A stretch of 35,923 nucleotides of DNA from Dehalococcoidia bacterium (lineage in GTDB: Bacteria > Chloroflexota > Dehalococcoidia > UBA2979), in NCBI GenBank assembly GCA_019694855.1, contig JAIBBD010000020.1, positions 1 to 35,923 on the forward strand, read 5' to 3'. The translations under genes and the position numbers were made by a program. The notes below the pieces were generated by a model. That model saw only the letters and a list, made by a program, of their open reading frames with translations, had not been told where the DNA came from and ran no database searches. This document shows positions 4,324 through 17,232 of the stretch, piece by piece; position 1 is the stretch's first letter; the number at the start of each line of letters is the position of its first letter.

Positions 4324-5802
4324 ATGCGCATCTCGCTCCCGTTCCGCCAGCACGCGACGCCACGCACGCCGCTCGTGCGGGCGCTTGAGGCCGCAGTGGG
4401 CTCGGCGCACGTGCTGCATCTGGCGGAAGACCTGCTGGCGTACGAGTACGACGCCACCATCGAGCGACGGCGACCGGACGCCGTCGTCTTCCCGCGGAGC
4501 ACCGAGGAGGCCGCCGCCTGCGTCCGCATCGCGAACGAGCACAACGTGCCAATCGTCCCGCGCGGCTCGGGCACCGGTCTCGCCGGCGGCGCTGTGCCGG
4601 CACAGGGCGGCCTCGTGGTGGTGTTGACGAGGATGAACCGCATCCTCGAGCTGGACCCGCGCGACCGCATCGCGGTGGTGCAGCCCGGCGTCATCAACCT
4701 CGCCCTGCAAGAGGCGTGCGCGCCCCACGGACTGCTCTACGCGCCCGACCCGTCCTCGCAGCGCATCTGCACGCTCGGCGGCAACATCGCGAACAACTCG
4801 GGCGGCCCGCACACGCTCGCGCACGGTAGCACGGTCAACCACGTGCTGGGCCTCGAGGTCGTGCTGCCCGATGGGCGCGTCACGTGGCTCGGTGCCCGCC
4901 AGCTCGACGCCCCGGGAGTGGACCTGCGTGGCCTCTTCGTGGGCTCCGAGGGCACCCTGGGAATCGTGACGCAGATCTGCGTCCGTCTCGTGCGAGCGCC
5001 GGAAGCGGTGCGCACGATGCTCGCCATCTTCGAGACGATCGACGAAGCCACGGAAGCGGTGTCGGCGATCATCCGGCGCGGCATCATCCCGGTCGCGCTC
5101 GAGATGCTCGACCAGGAGATCATCCGCGCCGTTGAACCGCAGCTCCACGTCGGCTACCCGCTCGATGCGGGCGCCGTGCTGCTGATCGAGGTGGAAGGGC
5201 TGCGCGAGACAGTCCTCGAGGACGAGGCAGCGGTGATCGGCGTCTGTCGCGAACTCCATGCCCGCGAGGTGCGCACGGCGGCTTCGGAGGACGAGCGGGC
5301 TCGACTCTGGGAAGGCCGTAAGGGCGGCATCGGCGCGATCGGGGCGGTCAGCCCGAACTTCTACATCCTCGACGGCGTCGTGCCTCGCACGCGGCTGCCA
5401 GAAGTGATGCGCGAGGTCATGCGGCTGTCCGAGGCGGCCGGCTTCCGCTGCGCGAACATCTTCCACGCGGGCGACGGCAACCTGCACCCGAACATCATGT
5501 TCGACGAACTGGAGCCCGGCGCGATCGGTCGCGTCCTCGACCTGGGCGGCCAGATCATGCGCGTGTGCGTGGACGCCGGCGGATCGATCACCGGGGAGCA
5601 CGGCGTCGGCCTCGAAAAGCGGTCGTACATGGAGTGGATCTTCGGCCCCCCCGACCTCGAGGCGATGGAGCGCGTCCGGGTCGCCTTCGGCGGCGCCGAC
5701 CGCTTCAACCCGTGCAAGCTGCTGCCCACTGGCCGGGGTTGCGGGCATGCCCATGCCACCGAGCTGCTCCGGCACCTCGAGACGCCGGGGGTGTACGTGT
5801 GA
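4324..5802 (+). CDS. glcD: FAD-linked oxidase, glycolate/D-lactate dehydrogenase subunit
   Basis: FAD subunit that oxidises a 2-hydroxyacid (glycolate or D-lactate) and passes electrons to the membrane quinone pool with its partners. 492 residues. PCMH-type FAD domain at the N-terminus: LLAYEYDATIERRRPDAVVFP, IVPRGSGTGLAGGAVP, GGNIANNSGGPHTLAHGST, FVGSEGTLGIVTQICVRL; FAD-oxidase C domain: FHAGDGNLHPNIMFD, GSITGEHGVGLEKRSYM and RFNPCKLLPTG at the end. The ATG at 4324 begins right before LPFRQHAT; upstream codons in frame belong to antisense of the phosphatase. The stop overlaps the GTG of glcE. Sequence alone does not separate glycolate from D-lactate specificity. Confidence 0.93.
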   Translation: MRISLPFRQHATPRTPLVRALEAAVGSAHVLHLAEDLLAYEYDATIERRRPDAVVFPRSTEEAAACVRIANEHNVPIVPRGSGTGLAGGAVPAQGGLVVVLTRMNRILELDPRDRIAVVQPGVINLALQEACAPHGLLYAPDPSSQRICTLGGNIANNSGGPHTLAHGSTVNHVLGLEVVLPDGRVTWLGARQLDAPGVDLRGLFVGSEGTLGIVTQICVRLVRAPEAVRTMLAIFETIDEATEAVSAIIRRGIIPVALEMLDQEIIRAVEPQLHVGYPLDAGAVLLIEVEGLRETVLEDEAAVIGVCRELHAREVRTAASEDERARLWEGRKGGIGAIGAVSPNFYILDGVVPRTRLPEVMREVMRLSEAAGFRCANIFHAGDGNLHPNIMFDELEPGAIGRVLDLGGQIMRVCVDAGGSITGEHGVGLEKRSYMEWIFGPPDLEAMERVRVAFGGADRFNPCKLLPTGRGCGHAHATELLRHLETPGVYV

Positions 5803-7049
5803 CCGCCAGCCTCAGCAGCGACATCGAGTCGGTCCTTCCCATGGCGCGCCAACGGCCGCCGGCCGGCTACCCGATCGACGGCGTCACGCCTCGTGTCGCC
5901 TTCCGTCCGGAGACTCGTGACGAGGTGGCAGCGCTGCTGCAGGCAGCCGACGCGACCGGGTTCACGGTCGCGCCGCAGGGCAGCCGCACAACCCTCCGAC
6001 TCGGCCGGCCGCTGGCGGCGTATGACGTCGCGCTCGACTTGACCGGATTGTGCCGCGTGGTGGCGCATGAGCCCGAGGATCTGACCGTGACGGTGGAGGC
6101 AGGCATGACCCTCGCTGCGCTGCAGCGCCTGCTGGGCGAGCGAGGCCAGTACCTGCCGGTCGACCCGGCGCCCGATGACCGCGTGACGGTCGGCGGCCTG
6201 CTGGCGACGGCGCGCGCCGGCGCCTGGCGCGGCCACCTTCCCGCGGCGCGGGACCTCGTCCTCGGCGCCACCGTCGCCATGCCCGACGGCGCCCTCGTGA
6301 GGTCGGGCGGCCGAGTCGTGAAGAACGTCAGTGGTTACGACCTGCACCGCATGCACACCGGAGCGCTGGGCGCTTTCGGCGTGATCGTCGAGGCCTCGTT
6401 CAAAGTCGCTCCGTTGCCGGCTGGAAGGCGGAGCTTCGCGCTCCGCTGCACGAACCTCGAGCAGGCTTCGGAACTCGCGTTTGCGCTGTGGGACGAAGCG
6501 CTGCCGCTGTCCGCACTCGCCCTGCTCTCGCCGGGCGCGGCGGGCATGGCGGAGCTGCCCCCTGACCCGTACGTCCTCCTCGAAGCGATGGGGAACGACG
6601 CCATCATGAAGCGCGTCGCGGACGCGGTGAAGGTCCGGGCAGTGCTCGCTCACGCAAGCGGCGGCATCGAGACCGACTCGCAACCGTGGGCGCGCCTTCG
6701 CATGGCCGCGGGCGGCAACGACAGCGTTGTTCTCCGCCTCGGCGTCCCTGCCTCCCAGGTGTCGGCCGCAATCGAGGAAGCCGAGGGCGCCGGCTGCACC
6801 GCCTGGGGCTACCTCGCCGCGGGCGCCGTGCTCGCGTCCGCGCCGACGCTCCCTCCCGAGGAGGTTGTTCGTCTGCGTTCGTACGCGCGCAGTCTCGGCG
6901 GCTTCCTGCAGGTTGAATCAGCGGATGCCTCGTTACGTGCCGACGTCGACCCATGTGGCGAAGATGACGCGCTCCTCGTGCGTGCCCTCAAGGCCCAGTT
7001 CGACCCGCGGGGCACGATCAACCGCGGGCGGTGGATGGAGGCCCTGTGA
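5799..7049 (+). CDS. glcE: FAD-binding subunit of glycolate oxidase
   Basis: Second flavin-domain subunit of the GlcDEF complex. 416 residues from a GTG that overlaps the glcD stop (GTGA). A PCMH-type FAD fold is seen: VAPQGSRTTLRLGRP, LTVTVEAGMTLAALQRLLGE, GQYLPVDPAP, VTVGGLLATARAGAWRG, ARDLVLGATVAMPDGALVRSGG, VVKNVSGYDLHRMHTGALGAFGVI. It lacks the longer C-terminal FAD-oxidase domain of GlcD, as usual for GlcE. C-terminal QFDPRGTINRGRW corresponds to the family's FNPGRL-type ending. Its end overlaps the start of glcF, so D-E-F form one translationally coupled operon. Confidence 0.92.
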   Translation: MTASLSSDIESVLPMARQRPPAGYPIDGVTPRVAFRPETRDEVAALLQAADATGFTVAPQGSRTTLRLGRPLAAYDVALDLTGLCRVVAHEPEDLTVTVEAGMTLAALQRLLGERGQYLPVDPAPDDRVTVGGLLATARAGAWRGHLPAARDLVLGATVAMPDGALVRSGGRVVKNVSGYDLHRMHTGALGAFGVIVEASFKVAPLPAGRRSFALRCTNLEQASELAFALWDEALPLSALALLSPGAAGMAELPPDPYVLLEAMGNDAIMKRVADAVKVRAVLAHASGGIETDSQPWARLRMAAGGNDSVVLRLGVPASQVSAAIEEAEGAGCTAWGYLAAGAVLASAPTLPPEEVVRLRSYARSLGGFLQVESADASLRADVDPCGEDDALLVRALKAQFDPRGTINRGRWMEAL

Positions 7050-8443
7050 ACCCGGAATCGCGGAGCCCGGGGCGAGGCATGACGAACTTCCTCGGGTTCG
7101 TGGGGGAGGACCGTCCGGCCCTCTCCGACCTGCAGAACTGCGTGCATTGCGGCTTCTGCCTGCCGGTGTGCCCCACGTACATCGCGACCGGACAGGAGCT
7201 TGAGTCGCCCCGCGGCCGGTTGCATCTCATTCGGGGCGTCGTTGAGGGGCGCGCCGAGGTCACCCCGGCGCTGCTGGGGCACCTCGACCTCTGCCTCCAG
7301 TGCCGGGCGTGCGAGACGGCCTGCCCCTCCTCGGTCCCCTACGGCCGCATCATGGAGGACGCACGAGCCTCGACGATGGCGCGTGGCGTACGCCGCCGCC
7401 CGATCAGCTGGACGCTGCGCGCGCTAGTGCTGCGGCAGGTCGTCGCGCGGCCTCGCGTGCTGCGCGCGCTCTTCGTGGTCGGGCGGGCGTATACGCGGTC
7501 CGGGCTGCCACAACGGATGCGCGGCGACTGGCGACGGGCTCTCCCGCCTCGACTGCGCGCCCTCGAGGCCCAGGCGCCCGTGCTGGACGCGCGGCCCTAC
7601 CGCCGCACCGGGAACGTCGCTCGCCCCGTACAGCCACGCATGCGGGTCGCGCTGCTCCTCGGGTGCATGCAGGGCGAACTCTACCCGCGTGTCCACGAGG
7701 CGACCGTGCGCGTCCTCGAGCGCCTGGGCTGCGAGGTCGTCGCGCCGGCGGACCAATCCTGCTGCGGCGCCCTGCACGCCCATGCGGGCGACGCCGGAGC
7801 GGCCCGCTCGCTCGCCCGTCGCAACATCGCGGCCTTCGAGGCGGCACGTGTGGACGCGGTGATCGTCAACGCCGCCGGCTGTGGCGCGGCGATGAAGGAG
7901 TACGGGCGGCTGCTCAGGCACGACCCCGGCTGGAGCGAACGAGCGCAGGCCTTGTCCTCGAAGGTCCGAGACGTCCTCGAGTTCGTCGCGGATCAGCCCC
8001 CCGGGGACGGCCTTGGGCCCATCGACGCCGACGTGACCGTGCAGGACGCCTGCCACCTCGCGCACGCGCAGCGGATCCGCGAGGCGCCACGCGCGATCTT
8101 GCGCTCCATCCCAGGGCTGCGAGTGCGCGAAATGCACACCCCCGACCGCTGCTGCGGCGCGGCCGGGCTGTACACGCTGGTGCAGCGCGAGATGTCGCAG
8201 GCGGTCCTCGACGCGAAGCTCGACGACATCCGCGCGACCGGGGCGAGCGTCGTCGCGACCTCGAACCCCGGCTGCACGCTGCAGCTCGAGGGCGGGCTGC
8301 ACCGCGCTGGCGGCGACCTGCGTGTGCGACACGTCATCGAGTTGCTCGATGAAGCGTATCGTGAGGGCGACCGTCAGTCCGAGGCGACGCGCCAGAGCGA
8401 GCTGAGCCGCGACTCGTTGAACTCGAACGCATCGAACTCGTAG
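7046..8443 (+). CDS. glcF: Iron-sulfur subunit of glycolate oxidase
   Basis: Electron-transfer subunit of the GlcDEF complex. Two 4Fe-4S ferredoxin motifs: Cys32, 35, 38, 42 (CVHCGFCLPVCPTY) and Cys83, 86, 89, 93 (CLQCRACETACP). Two cysteine-rich CCG domains follow, with QSCCGALHAHAGD and DACHLAHAQR/DRCCGAAGLY. I chose the GTG at 7046 because it overlaps the glcE stop and has GGAGG five bases upstream; an ATG at 7079 is the alternative. 465 residues. The last ~23 residues, polar and Ser/Asn-rich, run 70 bases into the end of the convergent solute-binding protein gene, so the natural C-terminal tail is probably a low-constraint extension. Confidence 0.92.
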   Translation: MNPESRSPGRGMTNFLGFVGEDRPALSDLQNCVHCGFCLPVCPTYIATGQELESPRGRLHLIRGVVEGRAEVTPALLGHLDLCLQCRACETACPSSVPYGRIMEDARASTMARGVRRRPISWTLRALVLRQVVARPRVLRALFVVGRAYTRSGLPQRMRGDWRRALPPRLRALEAQAPVLDARPYRRTGNVARPVQPRMRVALLLGCMQGELYPRVHEATVRVLERLGCEVVAPADQSCCGALHAHAGDAGAARSLARRNIAAFEAARVDAVIVNAAGCGAAMKEYGRLLRHDPGWSERAQALSSKVRDVLEFVADQPPGDGLGPIDADVTVQDACHLAHAQRIREAPRAILRSIPGLRVREMHTPDRCCGAAGLYTLVQREMSQAVLDAKLDDIRATGASVVATSNPGCTLQLEGGLHRAGGDLRVRHVIELLDEAYREGDRQSEATRQSELSRDSLNSNASNS

Positions 8444-9966
8444 CCGCGAACCTCGGCGGCCAGTGACGCGTATTCCGGCGGCGCCGAAAGCGGGAACATC
8501 GCCGGCACCTGATCGAGCAGCACCATCTGTGCTTTGCGCGCTTCGTCGCCCCGCTCGCGCGGGTTGAGCTTCGTGAACACGGGGCGCAACGCGGTGTCGT
8601 ACACCGGATCGGAGTACCCCCAGAGCGAGAAGTTGCCGGTCAGCCCGCCCGTCAGGTGCAGCCGCAGGCCGATATCGGGCGTCCGCAGGTCCTCCAGCTC
8701 GAACAGCGCCGCCTCGAAGTCGCCAGCGAAGAACAGCGGGGCCCAGCTATCGGGCGGCAGCAGGTTGACGCGCGGTGCGAGGCCCGCCTCACGCAGGTTC
8801 AGGTCGACGATCTGGGCGATGTTCCGCATCGTGGTGGTGTTGGGCCCCTCGACGCCAAACTCGAGCCCCGCTTTGCCGGCCGCGTCGAGCAGCTTCTTCG
8901 CCTCGGCCACATCGCGCTGGTAGAGCGGATGCTTGAGCAGATCCGCCTCGGAAAGTGCATCGCCGGCGTGGGCGGGCCCGATGGGTCCGCTGAGATAGCC
9001 GTCATCGACCTTCGCGATGGCCGCGCGGTCGAGGGTCAGCGAAATCGCGCGGCGGACACGGACATCCTGGAATGCCGCGACGAAACGCACGTTGCCCCCC
9101 GCCGGGCCCGACTTCTGCGGGAACAGCGACAGCCCCAGGCCACGCATGCGCCTTGACGGTCGCTTGGCGATGGTGGCTCCGGCGCGGGTGCCGGCCGCGC
9201 CGGGCTGAGCATCGCGAGGATGCACGCGCACGTCGAGATCGCCGGCCACGAACGCCGCGTCGAGGTCGCGGTCGACCGGGGTGTCAGCTACGAGCAGACC
9301 CTCGAGCAGCGGCTGATGCGCTCGGTAAAACAGCGGATGGGCCGCCATCGCAAGACCGGAGGCATCTCGTTGCGTGGGCACGAAGGGGCCGCTCCCGAGC
9401 CTCGCGTTGACTGCCTGGTAGCGCGTCTGCGACCGCACGCTTGCCGTGAGCGGGTCGGATAGGTAGTCGAACAGGAGGTTGAACGGGGCTCGTAGTCGGA
9501 GCACCACCGTCTCGATGTCGGGCGCCTCGACGCGGTCGATCACGTTCGCGAACAGGAACTCGCGGTCGGCGGACCGCTCCTGGAAGTCGTGCTGCACGTC
9601 CTGGGCCGTCAGCGCCGCCGCGAGGTTCTTGCTGTCCGGGTGGAAGCGGATGTTGTCCCTCAACTTGAAGGTGATCGCGAGGTTGTCACCCACCTCGGCG
9701 CTGCGGGCCAGGTCTCCGGAAAGGCGGTTCCTCCTTGGGTCGAAGGCCACGAGCGTCGAGTACACGAGGCCCGCAGGCCCCGCCGGCGAGGCTGTCCCGC
9801 TCCCCGGCGCGATCCGCAGCGTGCCCGCCCGGTCCTTCTGCGATGGGGCTTTGGGCTGGTCGCCCAGCAGGCCGCCGTTTCCACAGGCGGCGAGCAACAT
9901 GCCGAGCGCCGAAGCCCCGCCGAGGCGCAGCAACTCGCGGCGGCCGTAGAGCCGGGATACGGACAT
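8374..9966 (-). CDS. Peptide/oligopeptide-type solute-binding lipoprotein (SBP family 5), orphan
   Basis: Extracytoplasmic substrate-binding lipoprotein of the DppA/OppA type (SBP_bac_5), 530 residues. N-terminus: twin arginines at 9-10 (GRRELLRLGG), hydrophobic stretch, and a lipobox LLAAC with Cys28, so it looks like a Tat-exported lipoprotein. Family features: LVYSTLVAFDP, ITFKLRDNIRFHPDS, LTAQDVQHDF, VVLRLRAPFNLLFDYL, DVRVRRAISLTLDRAAIAKV and AKKLLDAAG. No ABC permease or ATPase gene lies next to it, so its ligand and partner transporter are unknown. The ATG at 9966 fits the signal peptide; upstream in-frame codons show no protein-like continuation. The 3' end overlaps the end of glcF by 70 bases. 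Confidence 0.9.
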   Translation of the reverse strand: MSVSRLYGRRELLRLGGASALGMLLAACGNGGLLGDQPKAPSQKDRAGTLRIAPGSGTASPAGPAGLVYSTLVAFDPRRNRLSGDLARSAEVGDNLAITFKLRDNIRFHPDSKNLAAALTAQDVQHDFQERSADREFLFANVIDRVEAPDIETVVLRLRAPFNLLFDYLSDPLTASVRSQTRYQAVNARLGSGPFVPTQRDASGLAMAAHPLFYRAHQPLLEGLLVADTPVDRDLDAAFVAGDLDVRVHPRDAQPGAAGTRAGATIAKRPSRRMRGLGLSLFPQKSGPAGGNVRFVAAFQDVRVRRAISLTLDRAAIAKVDDGYLSGPIGPAHAGDALSEADLLKHPLYQRDVAEAKKLLDAAGKAGLEFGVEGPNTTTMRNIAQIVDLNLREAGLAPRVNLLPPDSWAPLFFAGDFEAALFELEDLRTPDIGLRLHLTGGLTGNFSLWGYSDPVYDTALRPVFTKLNPRERGDEARKAQMVLLDQVPAMFPLSAPPEYASLAAEVRGYEFDAFEFNESRLSSLWRVASD

Positions 9967-10008
9967 CGACTCGATCGTCCCGTTCGCGCTGCTGGGGGGC
10001 GGGAGGTC

Positions 10009-10014
10009 ATAGTA
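10009..10014 (-). promoter_or_regulatory. -10-like hexamer for the solute-binding protein gene
   Basis: Reading the minus strand, TACTAT occurs 42 bases upstream of the ATG at 9966, in the 105-base divergent gap shared with the Rieske-like gene. No convincing -35 hexamer is at the expected distance, so the call rests on one hexamer. Confidence 0.3.
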
Positions 10015-10071
10015 CGGAGGGGAGCAGACGCCCGCTAGCCGCTGTGCGTGGTCGCGGGAGACACTGGCCTC

Positions 10072-10626
10072 GTGGATGAACGCAACGAGGTGCAGCGGCC
10101 ACGCAGCAGGTTGAAGCTGCTTGCCAGCCTGCTGCTCGCACTCTTCGCCGGGCTGGTGCTGGTCGGCGCCTGCCTGTCGCTCGTGGTATCGAGCACGCCG
10201 CGACACACGCTTGAAGTGCCGACGGGCGAGCTGTCGGCTGGAGCACCACGCTTCTACGCGCAGCCAAGCTTCGGGGCGGACGCGAACGGCCGCACCTATG
10301 GCGTGTGGGTGCTGGTGCCCGATCGGGGCGCGACACGCGCCTTCGCTTCGCGCGCCGCCGGTAGTGATTGCTCCGTCAGCTGGCGTGCTGAGGTGGCGGC
10401 GGGCGAGGTGACCGGGGTGTTCCAGGACGCGTGCGACAACAGCAGCTATGACGCCGATGGAAGGCTGCTGGCTGGACCGGCCCTGCGCGGGCTCGATCGC
10501 TTCGACGTCGAAGTCACGGCATCGAGGGTCGTCGTGGACCTCGAGAACGCGCACGCCGGAACCTGCCGCCCGGATCCGGCGCCGGGCGTTCCTTGCTCAC
10601 CGGAACCGACGGCAACGGCCCGCTGA
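10072..10626 (+). CDS. Membrane-anchored Rieske-like protein lacking all cluster ligands
   Basis: Unrecognised by name. 184 residues from the GTG at 10072; another in-frame GTG at 10048 would add 8 residues, and a GGGAG lies 11 bases before 10072. Basic N-terminus (RPRSRLK), one membrane segment (about 14-39), then an extracytoplasmic domain. Residues 89-148 align by eye to the cluster-binding half of a Rieske domain: the CPHxGCTVxW region reads RAAGSDCSVSW and the CPCHGSxFDxxGRxxxGPAxRxLDR region reads DACDNSSYDADGRLLAGPALRGLDR. All four ligand positions (Cys, His, Cys, His) are substituted, yet Cys100 and Cys121 match the structural disulfide pair of bc1-type Rieske proteins. So the fold is likely, the 2Fe-2S cluster unlikely. 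Function unknown. Lies between a lipoprotein gene and the convergent SUF operon. Confidence 0.7.
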   Translation: MDERNEVQRPRSRLKLLASLLLALFAGLVLVGACLSLVVSSTPRHTLEVPTGELSAGAPRFYAQPSFGADANGRTYGVWVLVPDRGATRAFASRAAGSDCSVSWRAEVAAGEVTGVFQDACDNSSYDADGRLLAGPALRGLDRFDVEVTASRVVVDLENAHAGTCRPDPAPGVPCSPEPTATAR

Positions 10627-10652: not shown

Positions 10653-11006
10653 CTACCAGATCCCCAGCATCATCTTGACCTCCTCGGAGGCCATCGTGCG
10701 CGGGTCCCAGGGCGGCTCCCAGACGAGGTTTACCTCGACGTCCTCGACGCCGTCTATCTGCGTGAGCATGTGGTAGGCCTGACCCTGGATCATCGGACCG
10801 ACGGGACAGCCCGGCGAGGTGAGCGTCAGGTCGATCGTGACCAGGCCCTCATCGTCGATGTCCACGTGGTAGACGAGGCCCAGGTCCACGATGCTCATAC
10901 GGAGCTCGGGGTCCTGGATCTGGCGGACGACCTCCCAGAGCTCCTCGACGGTGGGCAGCCCCTCGGACGTCTCGGTCGTGTCCGTGGTCGTGTCGGTGTC
11001 AGCCAT
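10653..11006 (-). CDS. sufT: SufT/MIP18-family (DUF59) Fe-S assembly protein
   Basis: Small DUF59 protein acting in Fe-S cluster maturation; last gene of the SUF operon, as sufT commonly is. 117 residues: a Thr/Asp-rich N-terminal ~18 residues, then the domain VEELWEVVRQIQDPELRMSIVDLGLVY, the conserved SPGCPVGPMI loop with its Cys, and VEVNLVWEPPWDP. The start at 11006 has a strong AAAGGAG ribosome site and overlaps the sufU stop by one base. PaaD, another DUF59 member, is a less likely identity given the neighbours. Confidence 0.9.
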   Translation of the reverse strand: MADTDTTTDTTETSEGLPTVEELWEVVRQIQDPELRMSIVDLGLVYHVDIDDEGLVTIDLTLTSPGCPVGPMIQGQAYHMLTQIDGVEDVEVNLVWEPPWDPRTMASEEVKMMLGIW

Positions 11007-11473
11007 CACTGGCTCCTTTCGTCCGTCGTCACCGGGACGCGGGCGGATTCGCTCGACAGTGCCTGTTCGAGGGTCTTCCAGGCGAGCGAGGCGCACTTGA
11101 CGCGCACCGGGAACTTCGCGACGCCCACGAGCGCCTCGATGTCGCCGTACTCCTCGCCGAGCGGCTCGCCCTCGACCATCATGCGCTGGAACGCCTGGAT
11201 GCCGTCGTGCGCCTCCTCGACGCTGCGGCCCTTCACGTACTCGGTCATCATCGAGGCCGATGCCTGCGAGATGGAGCAGCCGTTGCCATCGAAGGCGATG
11301 TCCGCGATGCGGTCGCCGTCGAGAGTGACGTCGAGGGTGATCTGGTCGCCGCACAGCGGGTTGGCGCCGTCAGCGCTGCACGAGGCGGCGCCAAGGCGTC
11401 CGCGATTCCTCGGATTGCGGTAGTGGTCGAGGAGGATGTCCCGGTAGAGGTCCTCGAGGTCAGACGCGGGCAT
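11006..11473 (-). CDS. sufU: SufU zinc-dependent sulfurtransferase / scaffold
   Basis: Accepts persulfide sulfur from SufS for Fe-S cluster building. 155 residues. The metal ligands and acceptor cysteine occur at Cys41, Asp43 (CGDQ), Cys66 (GNGCSISQAS) and Cys127 (RVKCASLAWKTL), almost the same numbering as described for Bacillus SufU (41, 43, 66, 128). N-terminal LEDLYRDILLDHYRNPRNRG is typical. I start at the ATG at 11473, which gives MPASDLEDLYR; a longer frame upstream is antisense-free but lies inside sufS. Overlaps the end of sufS by 14 bases and abuts sufT. Confidence 0.94.
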   Translation of the reverse strand: MPASDLEDLYRDILLDHYRNPRNRGRLGAASCSADGANPLCGDQITLDVTLDGDRIADIAFDGNGCSISQASASMMTEYVKGRSVEEAHDGIQAFQRMMVEGEPLGEEYGDIEALVGVAKFPVRVKCASLAWKTLEQALSSESARVPVTTDERSQ

Positions 11474-12743
11474 GGCCGAAGAACCTCGCTGCTTCCGTGA
11501 TTGCCTCGGCGAGGGCATCGACCTCGTCGGTGGTGTTGTACATGTAGAAGGACGCTCGGGCCGTCGCGGGAATGTGCAAGTGCGTCATGACCGGCTGGGC
11601 ACAGTGGTGGCCGGTGCGGATGGCGACGCCGTGCGTATCGAGCACCTGACCGATGTCATGCGGATGCACGCCTTCGAGGCCGAACGAGACGACGCCGCCC
11701 CGCTGATCGAGGTCCGTCGGGCCGTACAGCGTGATGCCGGGCAGGTCGACCAGCTTCGTGACAGCGTACTGGAGCAGCTCGCGTTCGTGCCGGCGGATCT
11801 GGTCCATGCCGAACGACTGCAGGTAGTCGAGCGCCTTGCCGAACGCCACGACGTCCGCGATGTTGGGCGTGCCCGCCTCGAACTTGTAGGGCAGCTCGTT
11901 CCAGGTCGACTGCTCCATGGAGACGGTGAGGATCATGTCGCCACCGCCGAGGAAGGGCGGCATCGCCTCGAGGAGTTCGCGCCGGCCCCAGAGCACGCCG
12001 ACCCCGGTCGGACCGAGCATCTTGTGCGCGGAGAAGGCAAGGAAGTCGGCGCCCAGGGCTCGCACGTCCGTCGGAAGGTGGGGCACGCTCTGCGCGCCAT
12101 CCACGAGCACGACCGCGCCATTGCGGTGCGCCAGCTCGATCAGCTCCTCGAGCGGCACGATCGTGCCGAGAGCGTTCGACATCTGGGTGATGGCGAGCAG
12201 CTTCGTGCGAGGGCCGATGAGCCGACGCGCCTCCGCAAGGTCGAGTGTGCCGTCGTCGAACATCGGAATGTAGCGGAGCACGATGCCGCGCTCATCGCGC
12301 AGCATCTGCCAGGGCACGATGTTTGAGTGGTGCTCGAGCTCCGAGATCACGACCTCGTCGCCCGGTTGCAGGAACGTGCGCCCGTACGAGTGCGCGACGA
12401 GGTTGATCGACTCGGTCGTGTTTCGCGTGAAGACGATCTCGGCAGTGTGGTAGCCGTTGATGAAGGCGCGCACCTTCTCGCGGGTCGCCTCGTAGGCATC
12501 GGTCGCTTCCTGCGAGAGCGTGTGGACGCCCCGGTGGATGTTGGCGTTGAAGTCGCGGTAGTAGCGCGTGATCTCGGCGATCACCTGCACGGGCTTCTGC
12601 GACGTCGCGGCGTTGTCGAGGTACACGAGTGGACGCCCGTTCACCTCGCGGCGCAGCACCGGGAAGTCACGGCGGATGGACTCGAGGTTGAACTCGCGCT
12701 CGCCTGCCGCGGCATCCGGATCGTAGACATGGGGCGTGCTCAC
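11460..12743 (-). CDS. sufS: Cysteine desulfurase SufS
   Basis: PLP-dependent class V aminotransferase-fold enzyme that removes sulfur from cysteine for the SUF machinery. 427 residues. Key features: YLDNAATSQKP near 41, TTESINLVA, ELEHHSNIVPWQ, DGAQSVPH, PLP lysine Lys241 in FSAHKMLGPTG, and the persulfide Cys381 in RTGHHCAQPVM. GTG start at 12743 forms a GTGA overlap with the upstream Rieske gene stop. The pairing with a SufU (downstream) rather than SufE is the SufS-SufU arrangement of Gram-positive-like lineages. Confidence 0.95.
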   Translation of the reverse strand: MSTPHVYDPDAAAGEREFNLESIRRDFPVLRREVNGRPLVYLDNAATSQKPVQVIAEITRYYRDFNANIHRGVHTLSQEATDAYEATREKVRAFINGYHTAEIVFTRNTTESINLVAHSYGRTFLQPGDEVVISELEHHSNIVPWQMLRDERGIVLRYIPMFDDGTLDLAEARRLIGPRTKLLAITQMSNALGTIVPLEELIELAHRNGAVVLVDGAQSVPHLPTDVRALGADFLAFSAHKMLGPTGVGVLWGRRELLEAMPPFLGGGDMILTVSMEQSTWNELPYKFEAGTPNIADVVAFGKALDYLQSFGMDQIRRHERELLQYAVTKLVDLPGITLYGPTDLDQRGGVVSFGLEGVHPHDIGQVLDTHGVAIRTGHHCAQPVMTHLHIPATARASFYMYNTTDEVDALAEAITEAARFFGHARV

Positions 12744-13063
12744 GGCGCACGACCTCCCTCGCAGTCGATGTACACCTCGTCGCCGTCGACCGTGACTGGA
12801 TAGGAGTGGACGCTGCGCACAGCGGGGAGCGTCAGCACGCGGCCCGTACGAGCGTCGAACGCCGCGCCGTGACGAGGGCAGATGATGCGGTCGCCTCGGA
12901 GCGTGCCTTCGCCGAGCGGGCCGTTGTCATGGGTGCAGCGGTTGTCGATGGCGTACAACGTGCCGTCGACGTTGCTGACCGCGAGCGAGCGCGCGCCACA
13001 CTGCACAACGCGGACCTCGCCGGCCGGGATATCCGCCGCGCTCGCCACGCGCTCCTGCGTCAC
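12740..13063 (-). CDS. Rieske-type 2Fe-2S ferredoxin in SUF operon
   Basis: Soluble 107-residue Rieske ferredoxin of the NirD/oxygenase-ferredoxin type. Both ligand boxes are intact: Cys43-Thr-His45 (CTHDNGPLGEG) and Cys62-Pro-Arg-His65 (CPRHGAAFD). GTG start with GTGA overlap to the sufD stop; its own stop overlaps the sufS start. Rieske ferredoxins embedded between sufD and sufS are known from other SUF operons; an electron-donor role in cluster assembly is inferred from position, not shown by sequence. Confidence 0.92.
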   Translation of the reverse strand: MTQERVASAADIPAGEVRVVQCGARSLAVSNVDGTLYAIDNRCTHDNGPLGEGTLRGDRIICPRHGAAFDARTGRVLTLPAVRSVHSYPVTVDGDEVYIDCEGGRAP

Positions 13064-14277
13064 AGATCCGCCGTCTGCAGCTTCGCGAACACGCGCTCCT
13101 CGAGCTGCTCGCCGAAGCCCTCGAGGGGGAGCTCGCCGACGACCGACTGGAAGAAGCCGGCCACGAGCAACTGCAGCGCCTGCCGGCGGTCGAGCCCGCG
13201 GCTCTGGAGGTAGAACAGCGCTTCCTGGTCGACCGGGCCCACCGTCGCGCCATGGCCGCAGCGGATGACGTCCGCGGTCAGGATCTCGAGGACCGGGTCG
13301 GAGTCCGCCTTCGCCGAGCCGGACAGGAGGAGGTTCTTGTTCGCCTGATCGGCGTTGGCGCCGTGGGCGCCCTCGCCCACGCGCGTGATGCCGTAGTAGA
13401 CGGAGCGCGAGGCCCCGGCGAGCGCCGACTTCACCTCGACCTCCGAGGTCGTGCGGGGCCCGATGTGATCCTGCAGCGTGACGAAGTCGAAGTGCTGATC
13501 CGCGTTCCCCAGCGCGACCGCGCGGATGACGGACGTCGCTCCCTCACCCTCGAGGAGTACCTCGACCGTCTGCTTGAGCAGCTGTCCGCCGATAGCGACC
13601 GACGCGACCTGAAGGTCGGCGTCCTTGGCGAGGCGTGCCCGCACCCAGGTGAAGTCGCGCGTCGCCTCGCCCCACTGGTCGTCGAGCAGCAGCTTCACTC
13701 GTGCGGCCTGGCCGGCGATGACCTCGACGACGCCGATCGCGAGGAGGGGATCCGCGCCCGAACGCGTCCGCAGCACGATGGTGACCTCACCCTGCTCTTC
13801 AGCGACGACGAGCACGCGCGGGTACACAGCGGCCGAAGCGAGCCCGGCTGCGTCGATGGTGACGACCACGGGTTGCTCGAAGGCCTGACCACGTGGCACG
13901 TGGACGAGGACGCCGTCCTCCCACTGCGCGGCGTTCGCCGCGATGAACTTGCCTTCAGTCGTGGCAACGACGGAACCGAGGTGCTCCCGGGCGACCTCGG
14001 CGGGGCCGCCGGTAAGACGACCCGCGAAGCCGCCAGCGGGGGCCGTGCCCTCGACAGTGATGGCTGCCGGGTGCGGCGGGAACGCCTCGAGGTCGAGGCC
14101 CTGGAGATCCGTGTAGCGCCACGGCCGCAGTGCGGCGGTCGGCATCGGCAGCGCCGAGGTGGCGCGTGCCGCCTCGGCGCGTGCCTCCTGCAACCATTGG
14201 GGCTCGCCGCGCTCGATCGAGGCGGCGGCGACCTGCGACTCGGTGTAGCGCTCGGCGGTAGCCGTGCGATCGGTCAT
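13060..14277 (-). CDS. sufD: SufD, Fe-S cluster assembly scaffold subunit
   Basis: Paralogue and partner of SufB in the SufBC2D scaffold complex. 405 residues. N-terminal alpha region (LPMPTAALRPWRYTDL), central beta-helix, and the conserved C-terminal section TSEVEVKSALAGASRSVYYG, HGANADQANKNLLL and IRCGHGATVGPVDQEALFYL, including the CGHGA motif whose His contributes at the SufB interface. Followed by GLDRRQALQLLVAGFF. ATG at 14277; stop overlaps the Rieske gene start. 28 bases separate it from sufB. Confidence 0.94.
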   Translation of the reverse strand: MTDRTATAERYTESQVAAASIERGEPQWLQEARAEAARATSALPMPTAALRPWRYTDLQGLDLEAFPPHPAAITVEGTAPAGGFAGRLTGGPAEVAREHLGSVVATTEGKFIAANAAQWEDGVLVHVPRGQAFEQPVVVTIDAAGLASAAVYPRVLVVAEEQGEVTIVLRTRSGADPLLAIGVVEVIAGQAARVKLLLDDQWGEATRDFTWVRARLAKDADLQVASVAIGGQLLKQTVEVLLEGEGATSVIRAVALGNADQHFDFVTLQDHIGPRTTSEVEVKSALAGASRSVYYGITRVGEGAHGANADQANKNLLLSGSAKADSDPVLEILTADVIRCGHGATVGPVDQEALFYLQSRGLDRRQALQLLVAGFFQSVVGELPLEGFGEQLEERVFAKLQTADL

Positions 14278-14305
14278 GAGCGTGTCCTCGTATCCGTTTG
14301 CGGCG

Positions 14306-15721
14306 CTAGCCGACGGAGCCTTCCATCTGGAGCTCGATGAGCCGGTTCAGCTCGATCGCGTACTCCATCGGCAGCTCCTTGACGATCGGCTCGACAAAGC
14401 CGTTCACGACCATCTTTGCGGCCTCCTCCTCGGGGATGCCGCGCGCCATCAGGTAGAACAGCTGGTCCTCGCCGAGCTTCGAGACGGACGCCTCGTGGCC
14501 GATCTGCACGCGCTCCTCGTCCACCTCCATGGTGGGGTAGGTGTCCGAGCGCGACAGCTCGTCGAGCAGCAGTGCGTCGCAGCGCACGGTCGAGGAGGCG
14601 TTCTCGGCGCCCTCGTACACCTTGAGCAAGCCGCGATACGAGGTACGGCCGTTCCCGCGCGAGACCGACTTCGAGACGATGGCGCTCGAGGTGTTCGGCG
14701 CCACGTGCACGATCTTGCCGCCGGCGTCCTGGTGCTGGCCGTTGCCGGCGAAGGCGAGCGAGAGGATCTCGCCGTGCGCGCCCTCGCCCATCAGGTAGAC
14801 GGACGGGTACTTCATCGTCAGTTTCGAGCCGAGGTTGCCGTCGACCCACTCCATGACGGCGTTCTCGTAGGCGTACGCCCGCTTCGTCACGAGGTTGTAG
14901 ACGTTGTTCGACCAGTTTTGGATCGTCGTGTAGCGGACGCGCGCGCCCTTCTTGATGACGATCTCGACGACCGCCGAATGCAGCGAGTCCGTGCTGTAGA
15001 TCGGCGCGGTGCAGCCCTCGACGTAGTGCACGTACGAGTCCTCGTCCGCGATGATCAGCGTCCGCTCGAACTGGCCCATGTTCTCCGTGTTGATGCGGAA
15101 GTAGGCCTGCAGCGGGATCTCGACGCGCACGCCCTTGGGCACGTAGATAAACGAGCCACCCGACCACACGGCCGAGTTGAGCGCCGCGTAGCGGTTATCG
15201 CCCGCCGGAACGACCGTCCCGAAGTACTCCCGCACGAGGTCCTCGTGCTCGGCGAGGCCCTGGTCCATGCCCAGGAAGACCACGCCCTGCTTCTTCAGGT
15301 CCTCGCGGATGTTGTGGTAGACCACCTCGGAGTCGTACTGGGCGCCGGCGCCCGCGAGGAACTGGCGCTCCGCCTCGGGGATGCCGAGCTTGTCGAAGGT
15401 GTCCTTGATGTACTCCGGGACATCCTCCCACTTCGTGGCGTCACGGTCGGTGGCGCGCACGTAGTAGTGGATGTTGTCGAAGTCGATGGCCTGCAGCAGC
15501 TCAGGGCTGCCGGCCCAGGTCGGGTCGTGCAGCTGGCGGAAGGTCGCGAGCGCCTCGAGGCGCTGCTCGAGCATCCACTCCGGCTCACCCTTCATCTTCG
15601 ACATACCGCGGATGACGTCTTCGTTGAGGCCCTTCTCGGCGATAAAGAGCGGCTGCTCCTCGTCGTGGAAGCCCCACTTGTATTCGCCGACCGCTTCGCG
15701 GGCCTGGATGTTCGTCGTCAT
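14306..15721 (-). CDS. sufB: SufB, Fe-S cluster assembly scaffold subunit
   Basis: Core scaffold on which SUF assembles Fe-S clusters. 471 residues, normal length. N-terminal KYEWGFH-like motif reads [13 protein letters not shown]; further [75 protein letters not shown]. The functional Cys lies in [12 protein letters not shown] and the Glu in [10 protein letters not shown]-terminus [19 protein letters not shown] overlaps the sufC stop (ATGA). Conserved residues suggest full activity. Confidence 0.96.
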
Positions 15722-16509
15722 CGGGCGGCCGCCTCTTCCTTCTCACGGCTGAGACCGAGCTCCTGCAGGATCGGGTCGTAGCCGGTCGTCTCGATCTGCT
15801 TCGCGAGGCTCGCGTCGCCGGAGCGGACGATGCGCCCGTTCACGAGCACGTGCACGAAGTCAGGCTGGATGTAGTTCAGGATCCGCTCGTAGTGGGTGAT
15901 GAGCAGAATGCCCATCTCCGCCGTACGCAGGGCGTTCACGCCCTCGGCGACTGTGCGCAGCGCGTCCACGTCGAGGCCGGAGTCGGTCTCATCGAGGATG
16001 GCGAGGTCCGGCTTCAGCATGCCGAGCTGGAGGATCTCGGCGCGCTTCTTCTCGCCGCCGGAGAACCCGTCGTTCACGTAGCGGCGAGCGAAGGACTCGT
16101 CCATCTTCAGCTGCCCGAGGGTGGACCGCAGCTCGACAAGGAACTCGCGGGCCGGGACCTCCTGGCCACGCCGCGCCTGGAGGGCCGCGCGCAGCAGGTT
16201 CACCATCGTCACGCCGGGGATCGGCGTCGGGTACTGGAAGGAGAGGAAGAGGCCGTTGCGGGCTCGCTTATCGGCGCTCCATTCGGTGACGTCCTCGCCC
16301 TTGAAGAGAATCTGGCCGGCGTCGACGGAGTACGACGGGCTGCCTGCGATCGTGCTCGCGAGCGTGCTCTTGCCGGAGCCATTTGGCCCCATGAGCGCGT
16401 GCACTTCGCCACGGCCGACCGTGAGGTCGACGCCCTTGACGATATGGATCTCCGGCTTGTCCGCGATGCTGACCTGCAGGCCGCGCACCTCGAGGATGGG
16501 TTCACTCAT
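15718..16509 (-). CDS. sufC: SufC, SUF ABC-type ATPase
   Basis: ATPase that powers SufB-SufD conformational change. 263 residues. Walker [13 protein letters not shown] signature FSGGEKKR, Walker [13 protein letters not shown], switch His in [10 protein letters not shown]. Ends with a charged Glu/Lys-rich tail ([10 protein letters not shown]). First structural gene after the regulator, 24 bases downstream of it; sufC-first order is common outside the Actinobacteria. Confidence 0.96.
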
Positions 16510-16533
16510 CGGCTCGGTTGCCCTTCCGTTCGA

Positions 16534-17232
16534 CTAGTTCCGCACCAGTTCGGGGTGCGCCTCGAGGACGTCCACGTCCTCGTCCTGTTCCTGGTGGTTG
16601 CGAACAACGAGGTACTCGCAGGTCGGCGAGCCCTCGACGATCGTTGCGACCTGTTCCACCGACTCGCCCAGCAGCAGCTCGATCGTCCGCCGGTCCGCCG
16701 CGCATGCGACATGCGTGCCCTCCGCGGTCGAGCGGTACGGACATCCGATGTTGCGCAGCCGGATGCGCTCCCCCTCGTCGACGACATCGTTGAGGATGCC
16801 TTCGGCACGGAGGACGTCCGCCACCTGCGCCACGCGGTCATCGAGGTTGCTCGCGCTGATCCGAGGCGCGTACGCGCGGGCGATATCCTCCGCGACGCCG
16901 TTGAACACCTGCTCCAGCACCCAGACGCCGTTGTGGCCCGACACCGCGTCGGCGGGGAGCCTCGTCAGCGCGGGATAGAGCCGGTCCAGGAGTCGCGCGT
17001 AGTGCGCGGCAGCCGAACGCTCCTCGCCCGCCTCGCTCAGGAAATACCTCGTAACGGGGCGCCCTCGCGGCTGCCGCTCGAGGCGCATCTCGACGAGGCC
17101 CTCGGCGATCATGATGTCCATGTGCCGCCGCACCGAGCCCGATGACACGCCAATCGCCTCGGCGACTTCCGCCACCGAGGAGGGGCCACGGTCATGCAGG
17201 ATCCGTACGACTTCGTCGCGAGTTCGTTCCAC
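16534..17232 (-). CDS. sufR: SufR-like Fe-S-sensing transcriptional regulator
   Basis: DNA-binding repressor expected to sense Fe-S status and control the SUF operon it heads. 232 residues from a GTG. N-terminal winged helix-turn-helix (about 1-60: VRILHDRGPSSVAEVAEAIG, SSGSVRRHMDIM). C-terminal sensor carries three cysteines, Cys164 (IGCPYR), Cys177 (VACAADR) and Cys205 (SPTCEY); spacing C-x12-C-x27-C is close to the three-Cys set I recall for cyanobacterial SufR. The remaining sequence after Cys205 is acidic. No fourth candidate Cys is present. Promoter and palindrome lie upstream (separate entries). Confidence 0.88.
   Translation of the reverse strand: MERTRDEVVRILHDRGPSSVAEVAEAIGVSSGSVRRHMDIMIAEGLVEMRLERQPRGRPVTRYFLSEAGEERSAAAHYARLLDRLYPALTRLPADAVSGHNGVWVLEQVFNGVAEDIARAYAPRISASNLDDRVAQVADVLRAEGILNDVVDEGERIRLRNIGCPYRSTAEGTHVACAADRRTIELLLGESVEQVATIVEGSPTCEYLVVRNHQEQDEDVDVLEAHPELVRN

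Follow-up and report, generated by a model that had tools for sequence, protein, structure and literature searches.

A membrane-anchored Rieske-like protein without cluster ligands in Dehalococcoidia

Results and discussion

We describe a membrane protein of 184 residues, encoded by a Dehalococcoidia bacterium, that almost certainly has a Rieske fold from which the cluster has been lost. Sequence comparison indicates that it arose by duplication of a bc-type Rieske subunit, and the substitution rates measured among its relatives indicate that the clusterless form is maintained by selection. The cluster is the textbook reason for a Rieske protein to exist; in the present case, a former electron carrier seems to have become a non-redox component, and our favored reading, which we hold somewhat more firmly than not, is that this component serves a membrane complex from outside the cytoplasm, as an accessory or structural subunit. 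Members of the same family occur throughout the class, and some lie in operons that point to quinone-linked complexes.

A Rieske fold with all four ligands replaced

The gene occupies positions 10072..10626 on the plus strand of the 35,923-nucleotide contig analyzed here (hereafter 'the window'), with a GTG start at 10072 and a stop codon at 10624-10626. An open frame on the opposite strand, 8374-10554, overlaps it. From sequence comparison, this frame is an extension of a solute-binding protein gene whose homologues start near 9996, and the conserved protein of the overlap is the plus-strand one. Promoter and terminator scans of the intergenic region gave no match, nor did an Rfam scan of the whole window.

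The protein comprises a transmembrane helix (residues 13-40; 10108..10191, plus strand), predicted by AlphaFold, followed by an all-beta domain of Rieske fold (residues about 46-161; 10207..10554, plus strand), delimited by the secondary structure of the model and by its Foldseek matches. According to the positive-inside rule, basic residues ahead of the helix predict an N-in topology, with the domain outside. Remnants of both cluster-binding boxes are recognizable on the plus strand. The first, at 10354..10371, reads A95-A-G97-S-D-C100 in place of the canonical C-x-H-x-x-C, and the second, at 10426..10437, reads D119-A-C121-D122 in place of C-P-C-H; in each box both ligands are replaced and the disulfide cysteine is kept. 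The initial annotation had placed Ala, Gly, Asp and Asp at the ligand positions, with Cys100 and Cys121 retained, and the sequence bears this out, the four residues being Ala95, Gly97, Asp119 and Asp122. The two cysteines would form a disulfide that ties the cluster-binding loops to each other. Judged from its residues, the protein is excluded from holding a [2Fe-2S] cluster in the Rieske way, all four ligands being gone, and [2Fe-2S] binding would be expected to fail given this loss.

Beyond the loop cysteines, three more, on which the initial annotation is silent, are invariant in an alignment of 18 sequences (A4): Cys34, in the membrane helix (codon 10171-10173), and the C-terminal pair Cys165 and Cys175 (10564..10596, plus strand). 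The C-terminal pair, which is missing from some paralogues, probably forms a second disulfide. An invariant cysteine within a membrane helix raised the question of a lipoprotein anchored at Cys34. The VGAC of the window protein fits a lipobox, but many orthologues have none at this place and carry V, T, Q, Y, I or M before the cysteine; in addition, the helix of the model continues to residue 40. Because the preceding residue is not limited to G, A or S, we reject a Cys34 lipoprotein for the family.

The Rieske pattern that had been noticed up to the DGRLLAGPALRGLDRF ending proves to be real and beyond chance. When the single sequence is searched against the PDB with phmmer, Rieske proteins rank first (9rk3, E 0.0018; 5cxm, E 0.0042), and the DGRLLAGPALRGLDRF ending aligns with these solved proteins. 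Comparison by hhalign of a profile of 19 orthologues (A1) with a profile built on seven canonical Rieske sequences from the same phylum gives an E-value of 4.8e-19 over 89 columns, and an hmmsearch of the PDB with the family profile (E 4.8e-9) retrieves 12 distinct sequences at E <=0.004, all of them Rieske. Pfam contains no Rieske match for the window protein; its weak match to DUF2749 (E 0.052, half of the cut-off) was ignored. The NCBIfam matches to PetC are all sub-threshold.

Neither of the two outcomes that the initial annotation named as refuting it is seen: structure prediction yields a Rieske fold, and the loop cysteines are conserved among homologues. The AlphaFold model, computed from 18 sequences (the window protein and those of named metagenome-assembled genomes), has a mean pLDDT of 89.2 and a pTM of 0.77. 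Its best PDB matches in Foldseek are all Rieske structures: 8hn2 (E 1.6e-5, target-normalized TM 0.68), 9rk4 (0.71) and 1rie (0.66). Query-normalized TM values are lower, about 0.45, because the helix and the N- and C-terminal parts are not present in soluble Rieske structures.

Conservation and selection among orthologues

All sequences considered here come from metagenome-assembled genomes; for the relatives, gene calls and neighbor names were derived from our own ORF prediction and BLAST clustering, with Pfam checks on representatives. Orthologues were found in 25 of the 35 other genomes searched of the family. Named relatives belong to Dehalococcoidia and other Chloroflexota, mostly from lakes and seas; the search for these used a closer subset, with a pattern, RP[RSA]N[PV]WPR, that restricts the matches to orthologues whose N terminus fits it.

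Cys100 and Cys121 are kept in 26 of 26 orthologues and are invariant in alignments A1 and A4. No orthologue has a cysteine at a ligand position (0/26), and a histidine is retained in box I in two of the 26 and in box II in two of the 26.

Complete ligand loss, combined with the sporadic absence of the gene within the family, could be the mark of a functionless Rieske gene decaying toward a pseudogene. Against this, all 26 orthologous frames are open at 20-43% identity to the window protein, their loop cysteines are invariant, and clusterless proteins are distributed class-wide. Furthermore, close orthologue pairs show dN/dS values of 0.13-0.53, that is, purifying selection, the upper values being due to pairs for which the automatically picked start lies too far upstream. 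Decay is scarcely credible in view of these data, and we reject it on the dN/dS values. The earlier argument that selection keeps the fold for a non-redox job is supported by the same values and by the loss of the Tat motif described below.

A conserved position beside the SUF operon

The clusterless gene is flanked by two genes whose adjacency is conserved. Divergent from it lies a family 5 solute-binding lipoprotein gene (SBP_bac_5; 8374..9996, minus strand; Pfam E 2.8e-32), and convergent with it lies the last gene of a SUF operon, which encodes a SufT/PaaD-like FeS_assembly_P protein (10653..10979, minus strand; Pfam E 1.8e-18). The whole operon (10653..17232, minus strand) comprises an HTH regulator, SufC, SufB, SufD, a Rieske ferredoxin, SufS, SufU and the SufT-like protein. 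This gene order is kept in 26 orthologous loci, except at contig ends and for one insertion of 2.5 kb; in genome G001, a clusterless tandem pair occupies the same SUF-linked place. In three genomes (G004, G025 and G030), the SUF operon runs straight into the solute-binding gene, with no clusterless gene in between. The position is therefore old, but neither the SUF operon nor the solute-binding gene needs the clusterless gene.

Adjacency in 26 of 26 orthologous loci, with the exceptions just given, might suggest that the protein works with the SUF operon to assemble Fe-S clusters or to sense that assembly. However, the clusterless gene lies on the strand opposite SUF, it is cleanly missing between SufT and the solute-binding gene in the three genomes above, its clusterless paralogues lie far from SUF, and its domain is predicted to face the outside, where SUF is not active. 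Antiparallel to the operon, dispensable at the locus and with its product predicted to lie outside, the gene is rejected as SUF machinery, and we consider any such joint role very improbable. The initial annotation had allowed that the SUF adjacency may be coincidence. This holds insofar as the gene is outside the SUF operon, but not insofar as its position is conserved in the family. Since the locus contains no co-directional partner gene and can lack the clusterless gene altogether, the SUF-linked neighborhood points to no partner.

The SUF operon of the window contains a Rieske protein of its own, a ligand-complete ferredoxin encoded between SufS and SufD (12743-13063, minus strand) and present in at least 17 loci. 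It shares with the clusterless protein a Rieske domain and the locus; it differs in being a soluble, dioxygenase-type protein with intact ligands (CTH...CPRH), and is no close relative.

A wider group of clusterless Rieske-like proteins

Our wider set consists of 65 clusterless Rieske-like domains examined within the phylum, for which part of the weak matches were inspected. The clusterless family is spread over the whole class. A profile search of the window's genome retrieves five clusterless proteins, namely the window gene and two tandem pairs, one on contig 39 and the other on contig 53, as well as one canonical Rieske protein in a cytochrome bc operon on contig 47. Across 21 diverse clusterless proteins (alignment A5), Cys100, Cys121 and Gly130 are the only invariant residues. 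The initial annotation had asked whether homologues always keep both cysteines and never show Cys or His at the ligand positions. The first part stands, and cysteine is indeed found at the two Cys-ligand positions in none of the 65 domains; histidine, however, survives in box I in 11 of the 65 and in box II in eight. To judge from the sequences, these partial remnants look like stepwise ligand loss.

The third ligand position, 119, is Asp in 49 of the 65 domains; in alignments A4 and A5, at least 90% of the sequences have Asp119, often enough to leave room for a ligand-binding role. The emptied pocket could bind a metal ion or a small ligand through Asp119 and its neighbors, which would make the protein a sensor or a binding protein, possibly acting with the adjacent lipoprotein, whose gene is a conserved divergent neighbor. 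Yet the remaining three ligand positions vary freely across the 65 domains, so that no substitute ligand set is conserved, and the solute-binding gene persists without the clusterless gene in G004, G025 and G030. We regard this alternative as unlikely.

The relationships of these proteins were analyzed in a tree of 97 domains from which the ligand columns had been removed; with 86 usable columns, its fine order is not reliable. The clusterless state requires few changes on this tree, and the Dehalococcoidia clusterless group lies beside the bc-type Rieske proteins of Dehalococcoidia. A second clusterless pair, from genus g226 of family f102, stands apart from this group and is placed, with full support, amid ligand-complete sequences. 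The main clusterless group includes a few three-ligand sequences, but a single clusterless clade is not rejected by an AU test (p 0.35).

Ligand state is mirrored in the export signal. An RRx(F/L/V/M/I) motif just ahead of the membrane helix, the Tat motif, is present in 25 of 27 ligand-complete proteins, in all five three-ligand proteins and in 5 of the 65 clusterless proteins; the window protein does not have it. The Fisher p-value of 2e-15 for this association is overstated, as the sequences are related by kinship. The signal does not depend on how the ligand positions are aligned. The Rieske protein of Paracoccus is inserted via Tat, as cited in PMC10924467. Read from these sequences, the joint loss of the Tat motif and of the ligands is consistent with a protein that has given up its cofactor, and the coupling provides a natural test of whether the Tat route is required because cofactor insertion precedes export.

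Outside the clusterless set, the Rieske proteins of family f84 (L161, L170, L178, L180) and of L066 (G041:C92) have Ser in place of the third ligand, a Cys, and keep the other three ligands and the Tat motif. These proteins are possibly Ser-ligated or cluster-free.

Clusterless genes in acyl-CoA/ETF and cytochrome bc operons

The tandem pair on contig 53 is co-directional with the genes of an operon (L114, 5897-18001, G000:C53) that encodes, in this order, an enoyl-CoA hydratase, two small proteins for which Pfam gave no match, a second enoyl-CoA hydratase, clusterless proteins A and B, an acyl-CoA ligase, a NarI-like/4Fe-4S/CCG membrane oxidoreductase, EtfB, EtfA, CoaE and a MoxR-type ATPase. 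The NarI, Fer4 and CCG domains of the oxidoreductase suggest an ETF:(mena)quinone oxidoreductase. In other families of the class (f59, f66 and f68, and partly f22), the second hydratase is likewise separated from the ligase by a single or double clusterless gene. Many clusterless copies are thus arranged as tandem pairs in an acyl-CoA oxidation operon, which is conserved; examples can be inspected at L114, L191, L192, L193, L194, L061 and L115-L119.

A different context is found in family f102. In genera g281 and g194, an operon encodes an NAD(P)-linked Fe-S oxidoreductase, cytochrome b, a ligand-complete Rieske protein with an RR motif and cytochrome c. Genus g226 differs: its Rieske slot, between cytochrome b and cytochrome c, holds a protein whose ligand positions read Ser, His, Ser and Asp and which has QR in place of RR and a dN/dS of 0.08; this is the only Rieske match in genomes G345 and G496. 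The g226 operons are found at L195 (G345:C2), 4657-9309, and at L203/L207 (G496), for comparison with L201 (G443) and L202 (G300). Given its place in the operon, the g226 protein plausibly continues to serve as a subunit in a bc-type complex. If confirmed, a bc operon with a clusterless Rieske protein would challenge our view of how a bc complex can work. A complex of the g226 type would then have to oxidize quinol without a Rieske cluster.

These observations bear on the possibility that the window protein is a subunit or supercomplex tether of the cytochrome bc complex of its own genome, either competing with the canonical Rieske protein or adding to it. Its descent from a bc-type Rieske protein, the canonical bc operon in the same genome (C47) and the g226 operon are all compatible with such a role. 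In none of the 26 orthologous loci examined, however, does a cytochrome b gene lie beside the window gene or its orthologue, and other clusterless copies adjoin the ETF:quinone oxidoreductase instead; we therefore give this possibility little weight. The bc-complex-like structural subunit proposed in the initial annotation receives indirect support from the clusterless Rieske protein in the bc-operon slot of g226, the exact job being a matter of inference.

Our preferred reading, a non-redox subunit of a membrane complex, may be outlined as follows. After duplication of a bc-type Rieske gene, all ligands would have been lost, while the loop disulfide, the fold and the membrane anchor were kept. 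As cofactor insertion in the cytoplasm was no longer needed, export would have shifted from Tat to Sec. The domain would then fold and oxidize outside the cytoplasm and would act through protein-protein contact within a membrane complex. Quinone-linked membrane complexes are the setting suggested by the sister genes in ETF:quinone oxidoreductase operons and by the bc operon of g226. For the window copy, candidate partners would be a quinone-linked complex encoded elsewhere or the neighboring solute-binding lipoprotein. A comparison of the surface between paralogues found it weakly conserved, with no shared contact site. More speculatively, and with considerable doubt, we may hypothesize that a group of Chloroflexota has repeatedly made the Rieske carrier of its quinone-oxidizing complex into cofactor-free, Sec-exported, disulfide-locked subunits, some of them paired in an ETF:quinone oxidoreductase complex, and that in at least one genus the sole Rieske protein of the bc complex is ligand-less.

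Comparison with known proteins

The Rieske subunit of bc1/b6f complexes (QcrA/PetC type) has in common with the window protein a single N-terminal membrane helix, the Rieske fold, two loop cysteines and a GP(A/S)xR(P/G)LDxF ending, and bc-type proteins of Dehalococcoidia are its nearest relatives in the tree. In contrast to this subunit, the window protein has none of the four ligands (0/4), no Tat motif and no Pfam Rieske match, and is encoded outside a cytochrome b operon.

Substituted cluster residues are also a feature of the NirD/NasG type. NirD resides in the cytoplasm as an unanchored subunit of an assimilatory enzyme; the NirD model, TIGR02378, gave no match to the window protein, being absent from the NCBIfam matches up to E 1. 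In one system, the nitrite reductase of Bacillus, NirD is reported to be a Rieske-type protein with Cys and His ligands replaced (PMC3475470), so that ligand loss in a Rieske protein is not wholly new as a kind. The closest working model is the plant mitochondrial mFDX-like protein of the complex I bridge domain, a structural complex I subunit that has lost its ligands and binds no cluster (PMC10069907). This is a conceptual parallel only, as the protein has an unrelated ferredoxin fold, is eukaryotic and lies on the matrix side.

A described family of clusterless membrane Rieske proteins was not found in the open-access literature searched, which does not prove its absence. Within that literature, no account seems to exist of a family that spans a class, is anchored in the membrane, retains the disulfide, has lost the Tat motif along with the ligands and includes tandem pairs. 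That a large family under selection drops all ligands and keeps the disulfide and the anchor illustrates how a fold can be reused as a non-redox part, as in the mFDX-like protein. Automatic annotation will either miss such proteins or mislabel them as Rieske iron-sulfur proteins. A further arrangement was seen at L185 (8558-10333, G143:C28), where a single frame reads through an aspartate-kinase-like sequence into a clusterless Rieske domain, either as a fusion or as the result of an assembly frameshift.
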